Below are positions 1,127-8,932 of a stretch of DNA of 20,402 bases, one piece after another. The stretch comes from a virus. The stretch is from positions 1-20,402 of IMG/VR virus record IMGVR_UViG_3300022187_000319; one strand, 5' to 3'. The notes under the pieces are model-generated. The model was not told where the DNA came from, ran no database searches, and was given only the letters and a program-made list of their open reading frames with translations. A program made the position numbers and the translations under genes. Position 1 is the first letter of the stretch, and every line of letters starts with the position of its first letter.

Positions 1127-1756
1127 ATGGAATACTATAACTACAACTTCAACACATTAAGAGGCTCTGACTATGTGCCTTATGGTAAGTTAGTTCTAAA
1201 GACTGCTCCAACGTCTACGGTAATATCATTATCAGAGGCTAAGGCATTTTTAAGAATAGACTCAGACTATGACGATGACAATACTTATATTACGTCTTTG
1301 ATTAATGTTGCTACGCAAGTTGTAGAGGAGTTTACTAGACGTAGATTAATGACTCAGACGTACAATCTTTTTTACGATGAGTTTCCTCCTTACATTGACT
1401 TACAAGTAGGAGATGTTGCTAGTGTTACTCATATTAAGTATTACGATGCCGACAATACATTACAAACCTTAGCTACTGACCAATACGATGTAGATACTAA
1501 GGTAAGACCAGGAAGGATATATGAATCGGAGGATGGAGACTTTCCTAACACTTACGAAAGACCAAACGCTGTTGAGGTTGAGTTTATAGTAGGTGGGACA
1601 GCGAGTGACGTTCCAGCTCCAATAATTCAAAGCATTTACATAATTGTAGGGCGTTACTTCGAAAATCGCCAGGACGTTGTTATGGGAACTCAAGTAAATG
1701 AATTACCTTTAATGGTAGACCACTTATTAACTCCTTACCGATTGCTTGAACTATGA
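1127..1756 (+). CDS. Head-tail connector protein (phiE125 gp8 / HK97 gp6-like)
   Basis: Predicted 209-residue connector that docks on the portal after DNA packaging. The segment from about residue 34, with ISLSEAKAFLRID, then ITSLINVATQVVEEFTRR and a LMTQTYNLFYDEFP stretch, is the typical signature of the phiE125 gp8 family: an N-terminal helical part followed by a strand-rich middle and a C-terminal helix (IIQSIYIIVGRYFENR). The ATG at 1127 sits directly behind an A/T-rich leader with no Shine-Dalgarno sequence. Its stop overlaps the start of the next gene (ATGA at 1753). The order capsid, connector, adaptor is conserved in siphoviruses and supports the call. Confidence 0.8.
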   Translation: MEYYNYNFNTLRGSDYVPYGKLVLKTAPTSTVISLSEAKAFLRIDSDYDDDNTYITSLINVATQVVEEFTRRRLMTQTYNLFYDEFPPYIDLQVGDVASVTHIKYYDADNTLQTLATDQYDVDTKVRPGRIYESEDGDFPNTYERPNAVEVEFIVGGTASDVPAPIIQSIYIIVGRYFENRQDVVMGTQVNELPLMVDHLLTPYRLLEL

Positions 1757-3159
1757 TAATAGGCAAACTAGATAGAAAGTTAAAACTATACACACAGACT
1801 TACTCAACTAACGCTTATGGCGAGAGAGTAGTATCTGATAATAGTTACGTTACCATCTATGCAGACTTTGACTTCAAAGGTGGTAATACTAACTTCGATG
1901 CTGATGCCTTAATCAATGATGAGCGTATAGAGTGCTTAATAAGATACAGAACTAACATTGGAGTAAGTCCACAATACTTTATCTCTAATGGCTCTACAAA
2001 TTATTCTATCAAGAGTATTAAGGAAGTAGGTCGTAAAGATGCTATGGTGCTTTTATTAGAGAAGAATGACGTAGTAGATTTATCACAGACAGCTCCTAAT
2101 CAATTTGTATTTACTATTGACACAGAGAACACTTCAAGTGGCTCTAGCTTGAACACTCAATTTATGATGCCATTGGTTAGTAGTGGTAGTTATAACGCTA
2201 CAGTAAACTGGGGAGATGGCTCTAGCGATACAATTACAAGTTACAATCAACAAGAGGTTACACACACTTATAGTAGTGCTGGACAATACGAAGTAAGCAT
2301 AGAGGGAACATTACAAGGATGGCAATTTAATAACGCTGGAGATAAGCTTAAAATGCTTGACGTAAAACAATGGGGAGTATTAGATTTATCTACTTCTGCT
2401 GCGTTTTATGGTTGCGCTAATTTAGATGCTAGTGCTACAGATGCTCCTACTATTTCTAGTACATCGTTATATAGAATGTTTAGAGACTGCACCAACTTTA
2501 ATGGTTCTATCGCAAATTGGGATATAAGTTCAGTAACAAATATGAGTCAATGTTTCTTTAATTGTTCTACATTTAATAAAAGTTTAGATAATTGGAATGT
2601 TAGTAACGTAACTAGAATAGACTATATGTTTTATAATTGCTTATCTTTTGACCAAGATTTGAACTCGTGGGACACTTCTAATGTTGAGAGAATGGACGCA
2701 TCGTTTTTTAATTGCTCACAATTTAACGGAGACATATATAGTTGGGACACTACTAACGTAGAAAATATGCAATCAATGCTCTACAACTGCGACTTATTCG
2801 ACCAATCTCTAGCAGCGTGGTCTATTGCAAATGTCTCTAACTTTACTAACTTTATGCAGAACGCTACTGGTTTATCTACTTCTAACTACGATGCAACGCT
2901 AATAGCTTGGGCATTACAAACAGTCAATAGTGGATTAAGTATTAACTTTGGTGGCTCACAATTTACAGAGTCAGCTTATGCTTCAAGATTCAGCTTAATA
3001 GAGGATGATGGTTGGACTATTGTTGATGGTGGTATCTTTGACCCAACACCAGCCGATTACATAAGCGTATTAAACACTAGAGTAGTAGCTGCTGGAGGAG
3101 TAGTAGAGAACACTACAGACAGCCAAGCATTCTTACAAACATTAAACGACATAAGCTAA
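1753..3159 (+). CDS. Head-tail adaptor fused to PKD-like and BspA-like (DUF285) repeat domains
   Basis: A 468-residue protein with unusual architecture. Residues 1-105 look like a phage head-tail joining/adaptor protein (SPP1 gp16 type: GKLDRKLKLYTQT..YGE..., a strand-rich middle and a SIKSIKEVGRKDAMVLLLEK end), which alone would be the usual full length. About residues 118-186 look like a PKD-type beta-sandwich, with VNWGDGSSDTI and VTHTYSSAGQYEVSI. Residues 240-370 form five 25-residue repeats of the BspA/DUF285 kind: Cys recurs at 246, 271, 296, 321, 346 and Trp at 256, 281, 306, 331, 356. The tail (434-468) has ADYISVLNTRVVAAGGVVE, a stretch I have the impression recurs in phage appendage proteins. 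I infer a neck protein carrying a surface-exposed, possibly binding, extension. Starts in an ATGA overlap; its stop overlaps the next start (TAATG). Adaptor identity is good; the role of the extension is inferred. Confidence 0.75.
   Translation: MIIGKLDRKLKLYTQTYSTNAYGERVVSDNSYVTIYADFDFKGGNTNFDADALINDERIECLIRYRTNIGVSPQYFISNGSTNYSIKSIKEVGRKDAMVLLLEKNDVVDLSQTAPNQFVFTIDTENTSSGSSLNTQFMMPLVSSGSYNATVNWGDGSSDTITSYNQQEVTHTYSSAGQYEVSIEGTLQGWQFNNAGDKLKMLDVKQWGVLDLSTSAAFYGCANLDASATDAPTISSTSLYRMFRDCTNFNGSIANWDISSVTNMSQCFFNCSTFNKSLDNWNVSNVTRIDYMFYNCLSFDQDLNSWDTSNVERMDASFFNCSQFNGDIYSWDTTNVENMQSMLYNCDLFDQSLAAWSIANVSNFTNFMQNATGLSTSNYDATLIAWALQTVNSGLSINFGGSQFTESAYASRFSLIEDDGWTIVDGGIFDPTPADYISVLNTRVVAAGGVVENTTDSQAFLQTLNDIS
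2479..2862 (+). repeat. Coding repeats: five 25-residue BspA/DUF285 units
   Basis: Within the adaptor fusion, five consecutive units of 75 nt encode the pattern F-x-x-C-x-x-F-(5)-L-x-x-W-(7)-V-x-x-M. The Cys and Trp positions each repeat with an exact spacing of 25 residues. The DNA units are diverged, so this is an old protein repeat rather than a recent DNA expansion. Confidence 0.8.
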
Positions 3160-4649
3160 TGGCAGATGGACTATTAAATAAAGCAAGTATTATCTTAACT
3201 CCTACTGGTTACAAGGCTGGAACGCTTTACAACGTAGCACCAGTAGTAGAGCCTTATGAGGACTTTGACTTTGCTAGAGCTAGTGTTGCTAGTCGTGTTA
3301 ATTCTAGTGGCTTAGTCGAGATGGTAGGTAGAACTCTTGGTAGTGAGTTAGTTACTAATGGAAACTTTAGTAATGGATTAAATAATTGGACAACAAATAC
3401 TGCTACTGAAAGTGGTGGCGTAGTTACCATACCTAATAATGGTTATATATTCCAAACCATTAACTTTCCTGATAGTGGAACAATAAAAATACAAGTTGAA
3501 GGTAGTGGAACGGTTAAGTATAGATTAGGTGTTACTTCTCCATCTAATACGTTTATAACAAAAACTTTACCATTTACAGCTTACGAGGATTTAAACTCTA
3601 CTGATGTCAGGATACAGCTAAATAATACGAGTGGCTCTGATATTACTGTAACTAGCGTATCAGTAAAAGAAGTAATAGACACAAACAACATTCCAAGAAT
3701 AAGCTATGATAGTAATGGAGATAATGGTCATATATTGTTAGAGCCTACTTCTACTAATTTATTGCCTTATAGTGAGGATTTTAGTGAGTGGACTTTAGGT
3801 AGTAACTCTACTTTAACTTATGAAAGTGATGTGGTTGCACCTGATGGTAGTTTAGGGGTTTATAGATTACAAAATCCACAATCTGGCTCAACTTTTTTGA
3901 GTATAGGATTTATAAATTGTAGAAACTTTAGCTTATTTGTTAAGGCAGTAACTGGTGGTGTTAATAATCAATTTAATTTAGATGCTTCTGGTCAACCTAC
4001 TGACACTAAAACAGCTACAACTCAATGGCAAAGATACGATAGGGACTTTGGAAGCCAAGCTAATTATAATTTATCTATTAATAATGGAATAGACAACTAC
4101 GCCTCTGACATATATATATGGGGCGCACAAGCAGAAGTCTTATCCTACGCTACATCATACATACCAACACTAACTGGAAGCACAGTTACAAGAGCTACAG
4201 AGACTGCAACTGGTGCTGGTAGTGCTGACTTAATAAACTCAACAGAGGGTGTGTTATATGCAGAGATAGCAGCTTTAGATGATAGTTCAATATCAATAGG
4301 TATATGTGATGGAAGCACAGATAATAGAGTGCTTATTTTATTACAATCAAATAATACTATTAGAGGATTTGTAGAAAGTTCAGACACTATTGTTTTTGAT
4401 GAAATTTATCAAGTATCATCTACTTTAGATTATCATAAAGTTGCAATAAAATACAAAGCTAATGATTTTGCTTTATGGATTGATGGAGTAGAAAGAGATA
4501 CTGATACAAATGGAGCTTCTCCTATTGGACTTAATGAATTACTATTTAATAATGGAGGTGGTGGTAGTATTTTCTACGGTAAATGCAAAGCACTAGCAGT
4601 ATTTAATGAGGCTTTAAGTGATAGCGAACTAACACAACTAACAACGTAA
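3159..4649 (+). CDS. Lectin-like multidomain structural protein (CBM-like domains plus LamG-like domain)
   Basis: A 496-residue protein, probably a virion surface or appendage protein that binds glycans. Three parts can be seen. Residues 62-172 start with SELVTNGNFSNGLNNWT and end with ITVTSVSVKEV, the usual frame of a carbohydrate-binding CBM4/9-like beta-sandwich. Residues 200-336 start with LLPYSEDFSEWTL, contain FSLFVKA and end with YIWGAQAEVLSYATSYIPT, a second such module. Residues 345-496 resemble a LamG/concanavalin-A-like domain (GVLYAEIAAL, then KVAIKYKANDFALWIDGVE, ending with ALAVFNEALSDSELTQL). No catalytic motif or signal peptide is seen. It sits between neck genes, linked by TAATG on both sides, so it is most likely made with the head-tail joining proteins. 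A role in adsorption or binding host polysaccharide is inferred. Confidence 0.65.
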   Translation: MADGLLNKASIILTPTGYKAGTLYNVAPVVEPYEDFDFARASVASRVNSSGLVEMVGRTLGSELVTNGNFSNGLNNWTTNTATESGGVVTIPNNGYIFQTINFPDSGTIKIQVEGSGTVKYRLGVTSPSNTFITKTLPFTAYEDLNSTDVRIQLNNTSGSDITVTSVSVKEVIDTNNIPRISYDSNGDNGHILLEPTSTNLLPYSEDFSEWTLGSNSTLTYESDVVAPDGSLGVYRLQNPQSGSTFLSIGFINCRNFSLFVKAVTGGVNNQFNLDASGQPTDTKTATTQWQRYDRDFGSQANYNLSINNGIDNYASDIYIWGAQAEVLSYATSYIPTLTGSTVTRATETATGAGSADLINSTEGVLYAEIAALDDSSISIGICDGSTDNRVLILLQSNNTIRGFVESSDTIVFDEIYQVSSTLDYHKVAIKYKANDFALWIDGVERDTDTNGASPIGLNELLFNNGGGGSIFYGKCKALAVFNEALSDSELTQLTT

Positions 4650-5912: not shown

Positions 5913-6338
5913 ATGGCAATTTTTAACGGAACGGATTTAATCCTAAAAGTTTCTCCTAGTAGTGGAGGAGCTGAAGCGAAATTGATGCATTCTCAGAATG
6001 TTTCACTTTCAATGAATGTAGATACAATAGACATCTCAACAAAAGACTCTGCTGGTTGGAGAGATTTGTTAGGTGGACAAAAGTCTTTTAGCCTTTCGGC
6101 TGATGGTCTTATGGACTTCTCAGCAACTGCTGGAGATACTGATGTAGCAGAATTATTTGACCAGATGTTTGATAGAACGGCAGTAGACTTTACTTTTGCT
6201 CTAGCTACTCCTGCTGGTTATACAATTACTGGAGATGGTTTTATTACTTCTCTTGAGATTTCTGGCGGTACAGAAGATGCTCCTACTTACTCTTGTTCTA
6301 TCGAAGGGTCTGGAGAATTAACTAAGACTGCTGTATAA
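5913..6338 (+). CDS. Major tail protein (TP901-1 family)
   Basis: A 141-residue tail-tube protein. It starts MAIFNGTDLILKV, has a beta-strand with VSLSMNVDTIDISTKDSAGWRDLL, and a GQKSFSLSADGL repeat-like strand, all typical of TP901-1-type major tail proteins; the C-terminal half has the expected GYTITGDGFITSLEISGG strands. Position before the tail chaperone and tape measure genes agrees. The ATG at 5913 follows a 25-nt A/T-rich gap with no Shine-Dalgarno sequence. Confidence 0.85.
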   Translation: MAIFNGTDLILKVSPSSGGAEAKLMHSQNVSLSMNVDTIDISTKDSAGWRDLLGGQKSFSLSADGLMDFSATAGDTDVAELFDQMFDRTAVDFTFALATPAGYTITGDGFITSLEISGGTEDAPTYSCSIEGSGELTKTAV

Positions 6339-6409: not shown

Positions 6410-6760
6410 ATGTACGAAGTAGTTATAATAAACGGTAAAGATTACCCAGTAAGATTTGGAATGAACTCATTGAGATTATTCTGTAAAGATACTGGAAGAA
6501 GTTTAGCTGACTTAGATAAGCTAGGAGAGGGAATGAGTTTAGATGATGCTTGTTATTTAATCCTAAACGGAATAAAAGACGGCTCTAGAGTGAGTGGTCA
6601 AGAATGTTCTTTAAATGTTGATGATGTCGCAGACTTGCTAGACGAAGATTTTGACGCACTAAATAAAGTGCTAGAGATATTCTCTAATCAATTCTCTGCT
6701 AAATTTGAAACGGAGGGAAACGACAAAGCCACGAAGAAAGTGGCAAAGAAAAAGAAGTAA
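6410..6760 (+). CDS. Tail assembly chaperone, G form
   Basis: A 116-residue protein in the place of lambda gpG, between major tail protein and tape measure. It has an N-terminal strand (EVVIINGKDYPVRFGMNSLRLFCKDTG) and a helical region (LDDACYLILNGIKDG, DVADLLDEDFDALNKVLEIFSNQF), as in other siphovirus G-type chaperones, and a lysine-rich C-terminus. The last codons overlap a -1 reading frame that continues into the T extension, with a slippery heptamer at 6715-6721. The role is to coat the tape measure protein before tube assembly (known for lambda). High confidence from context, moderate from sequence alone. Confidence 0.75.
   Translation: MYEVVIINGKDYPVRFGMNSLRLFCKDTGRSLADLDKLGEGMSLDDACYLILNGIKDGSRVSGQECSLNVDDVADLLDEDFDALNKVLEIFSNQFSAKFETEGNDKATKKVAKKKK
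6715..6744 (+). promoter_or_regulatory. Programmed -1 ribosomal frameshift signal (slippery heptamer plus hairpin)
   Basis: In the G frame the codons read gaG GGA AAC, that is X_XXY_YYZ with the heptamer GGGAAAC at 6715-6721. After a 6-nt spacer (GACAAA), GCCAC (6728-6732) pairs with GTGGC (6740-6744) over a 7-nt loop. The -1 frame is closed by a TGA at 6706-6708 and open from there to 7086, so the slip must happen at or after 6709. Every element of a lambda G/GT-type signal is present. Confidence 0.85.
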
Positions 6761-7086
6761 CTTGGGATAGCTTAGAAGCTATAGGTTATGGCTTCGGATT
6801 ACTTCCTCAAGACTTTTGGAGTTTAACTTTCCACGAGTTTATCTGTATGCAGAAAGGCTTTAATGATAGAGTAGAGAAAGAACAGCAATGGGAATGGGAA
6901 CGAGTGCGATGGTTGGCTTGTGTTAATTTACAGCCACATACAAAGAAAGGACAAAACCTAACTCCTCAAAAGCTGATGAAGTTTGATTGGGAGAAAAAGA
7001 AAGTTAAGACCGACATTAAGAAACAAAAGAAGAGAGCAGAATATATTAAAAAGAAATACGAATTGCTAAATAAAGACAATGGCTGA
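6721..7086 (+). CDS. Tail assembly chaperone T extension, expressed as GT fusion by -1 frameshift
   Basis: This -1 frame segment has no good start of its own before an internal ATG at 6847, but encodes continuous, family-like protein from 6721: EVTWDSLEAIGYGFGLLPQDFWSLT..EF, the usual core of T-type chaperone extensions, then a Trp-rich and strongly basic C-terminus. Slipping at 6715-6721 would join 104 residues of G to 121 residues here, giving a GT protein of 225 residues that ends inside the start of the tape measure gene (overlap 7079-7086). Calling only the piece from 6847 would miss the conserved core. In lambda the ratio of G to GT is set by the frameshift; the same is inferred here. 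Confidence 0.8.
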   Translation, partial: RQSHEESGKEKEVTWDSLEAIGYGFGLLPQDFWSLTFHEFICMQKGFNDRVEKEQQWEWERVRWLACVNLQPHTKKGQNLTPQKLMKFDWEKKKVKTDIKKQKKRAEYIKKKYELLNKDNG

Positions 7087-8932
7087 GAAAACATTAAGTA
7101 TAAAATTAAGTCTAAACGACAAGCAGTTTCAGAGTAGTCTCAAAAAATCAATGAGGTCTATGAAAAAGTTCGGAGGTAATATGAAATCCTTTGGACAAAC
7201 ATTGTCAAGAAATGTAACTTTGCCTATTGTAGCTTTAGGAGCTGCTAGTGTTGCAGCATTCGACAAACAAGCTAAAGCTGTAGCACAAGTAGAAGCTGGT
7301 CTAATCTCTACTGGTAATGCTGCTGGTTTTACATCTCAACAACTTCAAAAGATGGCAGCTGATTTACAAGCAAAGACAATCTTTGGAGATGAGGTAATAC
7401 TAAAAGATGCCACTGCTCAACTATTGACATTTACAAATATAGCTGGAGAGCAATTTGCAAGAACTCAAAAAGCTGCTTTAAACTTAGCAACTAGACTAGA
7501 CGGAGATTTGAAGTCTGCTAGTATTCAATTAGGAAAAGCCTTGAATGACCCAATAGCAAATCTATCGGCTCTTAGTCGTAGTGGTATTCAATTCTCAGAA
7601 GAACAAAAAGCAATAATAAAATCTTTAGCTAAGACTAATAAACTAGCCGAAGCACAAACTATAATATTAGACGAGCTAGAGAAACAATATGGAGGAGCAG
7701 CAGAGGCAGCAGCAGAGGCTGGTCTAGGGCCATTCCAACAGCTACAAAACTCTTTAAGCGATGTTTCTGAGGAGTTTGGTAAGTTAATAGTAGAAAACAT
7801 AGAGCCATTCAAAAATTTGCTTTTAGATGTTATAAAAGTTCTTAGAAGTTTAACTGATGAACAAAAGAAAGCCATTGTTAAGTTTGCTGGTTATGCTGCA
7901 GTAATTGGACCAGTTGTAGTTGTTTTAGGTAGTTTAATATCTTCATTAAGTATAGTTATTCCTTTAGTTCTTAAATTTGTAGCTGCATTTAATCCTATAA
8001 CAGCAGCTATTGGAGCAGCAGTTTTAGCAGTTGGATATTTTGCTAAGAGAATGGTAGACTTAAACGATGAATGGAAAGAATACCAAGAGACAACAGACGA
8101 ATTAGATTTAGGACCAGTAGTAGGAGACTTTGAAAAATTATCTAAATTAACTGATGTAGTAGCAAAAAACACTAAAAAAATATCTTTTAAAAAATCTGCT
8201 ATACCTCAAAGAATAGCATCAAAAAAACCTGGAGCTATTGCAACTGATACTGGAATACCAGAAACTTTAGAGGGAGTTGCAGCAATAGAGCCAAGTGGTT
8301 TAGAGAGTTTTAACGAAGCGTTCTTTAGTTTTAGTGAGGACTTTAGAAACTCTTTAATGAATACTTTCACAGAGATAACCAATATAATAGGAAAGGTTGG
8401 AGCTTTATTTGGTCAAATGCATCAAAAGCAATTAACAGAGTTGGAGTTAGTAAGAAAAACAGAAGTAGATAATATAATGGCAATGTCTATAGCTGAGGAA
8501 GAAAAAAATAAAATGATTGCAAAATCTGACGAAAAGTTTGAAAAGAAAAAAGCAGATTTAGAAAGAAAAAGAGCCAAGAGAGCTAAAGCAGTTGCTATAT
8601 TTGAAGCTATTGTAAATACAGCAGCAGCAGTTGTTAAAGCCTTACCTAATTTACCTCTAGCTATTGCTACTGGAGTTTTAGGAACAGCACAAATAGGAAC
8701 TATTGCATCTACTCCATTACCAGCCTTTGCTGATGGTGGTATTGTAAGTGGTCCAACAGTTGGACTTATGGGAGAGTATGCTGGAGCAAATACAAATCCA
8801 GAAGTTATTGCTCCATTGAATAAATTAAAAGATATGATAGGAGGGCAGACGGTACAAGTACAAGGAGTGATTAGTGGAGAGGATATTTTCTTATCAAATG
8901 ACAGATACTCACGAAGAAAAAATAGTTATTAA
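7079..8932 (+). CDS. Tail tape measure protein
   Basis: A 617-residue tape measure protein that sets tail length and is later released to help DNA entry. Features: N-terminal basic amphipathic part (LKKSMRSMKKFGGNMKSFG), the conserved block AQLLTFTNIAGEQF... to IQLGKALNDPIANLSALSRSGI (about 113-170), a hydrophobic section at 271-323 with two or three membrane-like segments, a charged coiled coil at about 450-505, and a Gly-rich end with FADGGIVSGPTVGLMGE, common in Bacteroidota phage tape measures. By the rule of about 1.5 angstrom per residue (known for lambda-like phages) the tail would be near 90 nm. Overlaps the T extension by 8 nt; its stop overlaps the next start (TAATG). Confidence 0.88.
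   Translation: MAEKTLSIKLSLNDKQFQSSLKKSMRSMKKFGGNMKSFGQTLSRNVTLPIVALGAASVAAFDKQAKAVAQVEAGLISTGNAAGFTSQQLQKMAADLQAKTIFGDEVILKDATAQLLTFTNIAGEQFARTQKAALNLATRLDGDLKSASIQLGKALNDPIANLSALSRSGIQFSEEQKAIIKSLAKTNKLAEAQTIILDELEKQYGGAAEAAAEAGLGPFQQLQNSLSDVSEEFGKLIVENIEPFKNLLLDVIKVLRSLTDEQKKAIVKFAGYAAVIGPVVVVLGSLISSLSIVIPLVLKFVAAFNPITAAIGAAVLAVGYFAKRMVDLNDEWKEYQETTDELDLGPVVGDFEKLSKLTDVVAKNTKKISFKKSAIPQRIASKKPGAIATDTGIPETLEGVAAIEPSGLESFNEAFFSFSEDFRNSLMNTFTEITNIIGKVGALFGQMHQKQLTELELVRKTEVDNIMAMSIAEEEKNKMIAKSDEKFEKKKADLERKRAKRAKAVAIFEAIVNTAAAVVKALPNLPLAIATGVLGTAQIGTIASTPLPAFADGGIVSGPTVGLMGEYAGANTNPEVIAPLNKLKDMIGGQTVQVQGVISGEDIFLSNDRYSRRKNSY

Follow-up and report, generated by a model that had tools for sequence, protein, structure and literature searches.

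A G/GT tail assembly chaperone gene probably expressed by -1 ribosomal frameshifting in a phage with a likely Bacteroidota host

The question raised by this locus is whether the reading frame T, which lies between the gene G and the tape measure gene, is a gene with a start of its own or the downstream part of a fusion, GT, produced by a change of frame near the end of G. The window, by which we mean the whole stretch of DNA that was analysed, is a whole virus record of 20,402 bases and carries a head-tail module with genes for the capsid, connectors, tail terminator, tail tube, G, T and tape measure. The features that bear on the question are the following:

5913-6338, plus strand: major tail (tube) protein, upstream neighbour of G (PF06199 Phage_tail_2, E 1.5e-19)
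6410-6760, plus strand: G ORF, putative tail assembly chaperone G, zero-frame product of 116 aa (phrog_2115 'tail protein', E 1.9e-5, over nearly the whole length)
6709-7086, plus strand: T frame, -1 relative to G (phrog_16333, E 2.4e-17)
6847-7086, plus strand: the T ORF expected from gene callers that rely on start codons, beginning at the first ATG in the T frame and lacking the T-core
7079-8932, plus strand: tape measure protein (phrog_27166, E 1.7e-62; PF06791 TMP_2, E 8.8e-8)

The order tube, G, T and tape measure is that of a G/GT locus, and the start of the tape measure ORF overlaps the T stop by 8 nt. Direct reading bears out the preliminary description of the T frame, according to which it is closed by a TGA at 6706-6708, stays open from there to 7086 and contains a T-core (EAIGYGFGLLPQDFWSLT, at about 6760-6846). 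The first ATG, GTG or TTG in this frame is ATG 6847 and none precedes the core, so that a gene call from that ATG would lose it, as had been pointed out. The gene order and the family matches also fit the proposed identity of the pair as tail chaperones, the latter through the relatives of the window. Among 27 aligned relatives, the G of three matches Pfam Phage_TAC_12 (best E 0.0047), and T matches Phage_TAC_6 in 14 (best E 4.7e-11) and Phage_tail_T in one. The window's own T lies below the Pfam curated cut-off (17.2 vs 23.4 bits), and family membership is weak when judged on the window alone. Foldseek searches of the PDB with models of G and T gave no significant match, and hmmsearch of their profiles against PDB sequences gave nothing credible.

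A Bacteroidota host is likely because homologues of T occur in Cellulophaga and Bacteroides phages, and the virus is probably a phage of marine Bacteroidota. A search of the GTDB species genomes for a relative of T, and with it for a matching host genome, found none, and a megablast comparison of the whole window with phages gave no match. Flavobacterium has and uses a programmed +1 frameshift site in prfB, a site present in 72% of the Bacteroidia genomes surveyed (PMC8710568); therefore, programmed frameshifting as such works in such hosts. Elsewhere in the module, residues 1-97 of the product of the ORF at 1753-3159 match the head completion family Phage_HCP, and the same protein continues with a PKD domain and DUF285 repeats (E 2.1e-46). 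A protein that joins head and tail thus seems to end in a large C-terminal domain of repeats, which may be displayed on the particle. The adjoining ORF within the head-tail joining cluster (3159-4649) has a C-terminal LamG-like lectin domain that scores below the Pfam cut-off. The tape measure protein is far more variable than G and T among close relatives; in several contigs with a T about 90% identical, much of it is only 35-48% identical, which suggests mosaic exchange.

Near the end of G, the sequence contains three elements in direct succession:

6715-6721, plus strand: slippery heptamer G_GGA_AAC (GGGAAAC), in phase with the G ORF (GAG 6713-6715, GGA 6716-6718, AAC 6719-6721)
6722-6727, plus strand: 6-nt spacer GACAAA, read from the sequence
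6728-6744, plus strand: putative stimulatory hairpin GCCAC-GAAGAAA-GTGGC (MFE structure, stem offset kept in relatives), with stem arms GCCAC at 6728-6732 and GTGGC at 6740-6744 and the 7-nt loop GAAGAAA at 6733-6739

The heptamer in the zero frame, the 6-nt spacer and the 5-bp hairpin had all been placed correctly in the preliminary description. Together they form a tandem-slippage cassette, viz., an X_XXY_YYZ heptamer followed by a structure at a distance of about 5-9 nt. GGGAAAC occurs only once in the 20.4-kb window when both strands are counted. The hairpin is short, with a stability of about -7 to -9 kcal/mol and a fold z-score of -2.15, and an Rfam scan of 6600-6900 gave no match. Two further candidate elements were rejected. 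A Shine-Dalgarno-like stimulator, GGAGG (6712-6716), touches the heptamer instead of standing some 10 nt before it, and in many relatives this place reads AGAGGGAAAC; a pseudoknot with the hairpin loop is unlikely, as the loop varies in sequence and length.

Judged from this single sequence, a chance origin of the signal is not negligible. Upon synonymous recoding of G with the window's own codon usage, a heptamer of any X_XXY_YYZ type was found in the overlap in 77% of trials (p = 0.77), mostly because the tail of G is lysine-rich, while GGGAAA[ACT] appeared with p = 0.19 and an equally stable downstream fold with p = 0.017. The comparison with relatives makes chance untenable. Loci were collected by the T protein alone, the heptamer being no selection criterion, and gave 91 distinct G-T sequences after removal of duplicates, with T identities of 64-100%. 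GGGAAAC is present in phase near the end of G in all 91, where it would give entry to T, and the spacer is invariably 6 nt long though it comes in five versions (GACAAA, GTGAAA, GAGAAA, GACAGA and GTAAAA). The stem is intact in 90 of the 91, the exception being an A-G mismatch in locus L218 (same contig as L072). The third stem pair is C-G in 66, U-G in 18 and U-A in 7 relatives and the fourth is A-U in 65, C-G in 25 and broken in 1, such that two of the five pairs covary; each needs 15 Fitch changes on the T tree, a count that may include recombination. Compensatory stem variants include GCUCC/GGAGC and GCUCC/GGGGC. The loop is 4, 7 or 13 nt long and, since these lengths differ in steps of three, both reading frames are preserved. 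RNAalifold did not recover the hairpin from a MAFFT alignment of 42 sequences because the indels of the variable loop misalign the 3' arm, and hence GC-rich 5-bp stems were sought at each offset in an alignment-free scan of 30 distinct downstream sequences. A stem is found at the +6 offset in 29 of these (97%). The next most frequent offset (67% of the 30 relatives) corresponds to a GC-rich 5-bp stem at about 6694, starting 28 nt before the heptamer end.

The codons of the heptamer are constrained at the nucleotide level. In 84 complete G sequences, GAG, GGA and AAC show 0 synonymous changes, as compared with a mean of 5.7 parsimony changes for two-fold (n = 31) and 9.8 for four-fold (n = 18) degenerate upstream codons with equally conserved amino acids, of which 4 and 1, respectively, are likewise free of changes. 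The heptamer precedes the first T codon read after the slip and shares only its last base with it; thus, T coding is not the cause of this constraint. The check proposed in the preliminary description was whether relatives that retain the T frame have lost the heptamer through synonymous changes, and no such case turned up.

Could T instead be a separate gene that starts in its own frame, at ATG 6847 or at a non-standard codon further up, with the heptamer being incidental? ATG 6847 is a possible start and one that mechanical gene callers would take, and, given that a Shine-Dalgarno-like motif is rare in the window (3 of 30 genes; GC content 34%), the lack of one is no evidence against a T start. 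However, the T-core, which is conserved from close relatives down to phages of about 30% identity, lies upstream of this ATG, 24 of the 91 relatives have no ATG in the entire T frame, and a separate gene leaves the invariant heptamer and the covarying hairpin at fixed spacing unexplained. ATG 6847 is probably not the real start of T, and we regard a separate T gene as very unlikely. The same conservation speaks against the notion of a T frame in decay or without expression, with the overlap as a remnant: all relatives have an intact and conserved frame, with 81-100% identity among the first 80 loci, and its core is kept across the distances given above, which renders this reading improbable in the extreme.

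More distant relatives bear on a further alternative, in which the frame changes in the RNA. GGGAAAC is absent from the 38 distinct relatives with less than 50% T identity. In 36 of them, an A9 run is present and T is in the -1 frame, while two need a shift of +1 or -2, namely L230 (A9, about 1497) and the Cellulophaga phage phi39:1 (L082, A8, 2945-2952). The frame of these two could reflect slippage during transcription, a -2 slip or an error in homopolymer length within a single contig. In a tree of 65 T proteins, the two signal types split at one branch with support of 99/98; the tree is unrooted, and its long branches make the deep order unsure. A9 fits RNA polymerase slippage, with A_AAA_AAA being also a ribosomal slip site. 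Efficient transcriptional slippage needs runs of about nine A or T. The relatives with an A9 run are likely to gain a base when the polymerase slips on the homopolymer, and this route might be considered for the window too, as an A8 or A9 run is present at the junction in every more distant relative found and the family tolerates such a route. However, the runs in GGGAAAC are only three bases long, and in 88 of the 91 clade sequences the overlap has a longest homopolymer of 3-5 bases, which is shorter than the runs needed. Besides, an RNA hairpin that covaries and lies 6 nt downstream is what one expects of a ribosomal stimulator. For the window, we consider slippage of the polymerase even less probable than a separate T gene.

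We consider it highly probable that programmed -1 ribosomal frameshifting serves here to express a G/GT tail assembly chaperone gene, and that the phage is of siphovirus type. The central proposal of the preliminary description, that a -1 frameshift signal makes a G/GT pair, is supported by the heptamer (91/91), the hairpin with its covariation (90/91), the coding conservation of T, the gene order and the family matches; the slippage itself, its rate and the chaperone roles are inferred. Most ribosomes would read G up to the TAA at 6758-6760 and produce the 116-aa chaperone. A minority, with tRNA-Gly on GGA and tRNA-Asn on AAC, would pause at the hairpin 6 nt downstream, whereupon the paused tRNAs would re-pair on GGG and AAA and the ribosome would continue in the -1 frame to 7086, T being decoded from 6721 on. 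The predicted result is a GT fusion of 226 aa, whose G and T parts meet at ...FETEGN-RQSHEESGK.... If the proteins act as in lambda, G would coat the tape measure protein and GT would recruit tube subunits through its T part, and both would leave before the tail is completed. The locus thus appears, with very good support, to add one more member to the known G/GT family. Gene calling that relies on start codons loses the T-core, and the finding corrects such annotation, including the split hypothetical proteins in Bacteroides and Cellulophaga phage records. In addition, the clade provides a clean natural series of covarying hairpins.

What the comparison adds, indirectly, is a suggestion of two kinds of shift signal within one gene family. 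At the clade boundary the signal changes type whereas the protein does not. It is an evenly balanced proposition that the recoding mechanism was exchanged within one homologous G/T family of Bacteroidota phages, in which most lineages would rely on an A8-A9 run and probably on RNA polymerase slippage, with the two cases of +1 or -2, and the clade of the window would use a purely ribosomal GGGAAAC-hairpin signal. An exchange between ribosomal and transcriptional recoding would be testable here in a single gene family, and in hosts where translation seldom involves Shine-Dalgarno pairing. In the records of the Bacteroides phage Bacuni_F1 (L083, 2723-3375) and of phi39:1 (L082, 2586-3312), G and T are annotated as separate hypothetical proteins with an A8-A9 run at their junction, and the joined product is missing. 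No isolate of the window's phage turned up, and phi39:1 is a relative in culture. Its record credits virion MS/MS to gp14-18 and gp22 and not to gp19/gp20, the G/T pair, which is consistent with the absence of GT from virions and is no test of it.

Among known systems, the gpG/gpGT pair of lambda shares with the window its place between the tube and tape measure genes, the -1 shift near the end of G, the GT fusion and a heptamer starting with GGGAAA. The lambda heptamer is GGGAAAG and not GGGAAAC, the window's clade shows a covarying hairpin after a fixed 6-nt spacer, and the proteins have diverged too far to match directly in sequence, except for Phage_tail_T in 1 of the 27 relatives. The same frameshift logic yields G and GT in a ratio of about 30:1 in lambda (reviewed in PMC5009743), and 6-7% was measured in E. 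coli for tail chaperone frameshift genes similar to that of HK97 (PMC3711429). The gene preceding the tape measure also has G_GGA_AAC in its zero frame in Rhodobacter phage RcCronus, where the chaperone is annotated as a joined CDS, and in Dinoroseobacter phage R4C, which is annotated without a shifted product. In these alphaproteobacterial Cronusvirus phages (L166, about 2188; L167, 2135), unlike in the window, a zero-frame TGA directly follows the heptamer, and searches with the window's G or T did not find their chaperones. Flavobacterium FPSV phages were left out as comparators for G and T, as their tape measure matched but their records name a tail sheath. The Bacteroides phages Bacuni_F1, F2 and F4 and the Cellulophaga phage phi39:1 share a homologous T (about 30% identity) and the same gene order, but at their junction an A9 or A8 run takes the place of GGGAAAC and the hairpin, and phi39:1 needs a +1 or -2 shift instead of -1. 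Precedent for homologous genes using either type of slippage comes from dnaX of Thermus and E. coli, a cellular gene encoding an unrelated protein, in which one lineage relies on slippage during transcription and another on frameshifting by the ribosome (Larsen et al. 2000, as cited in PMC3711429).
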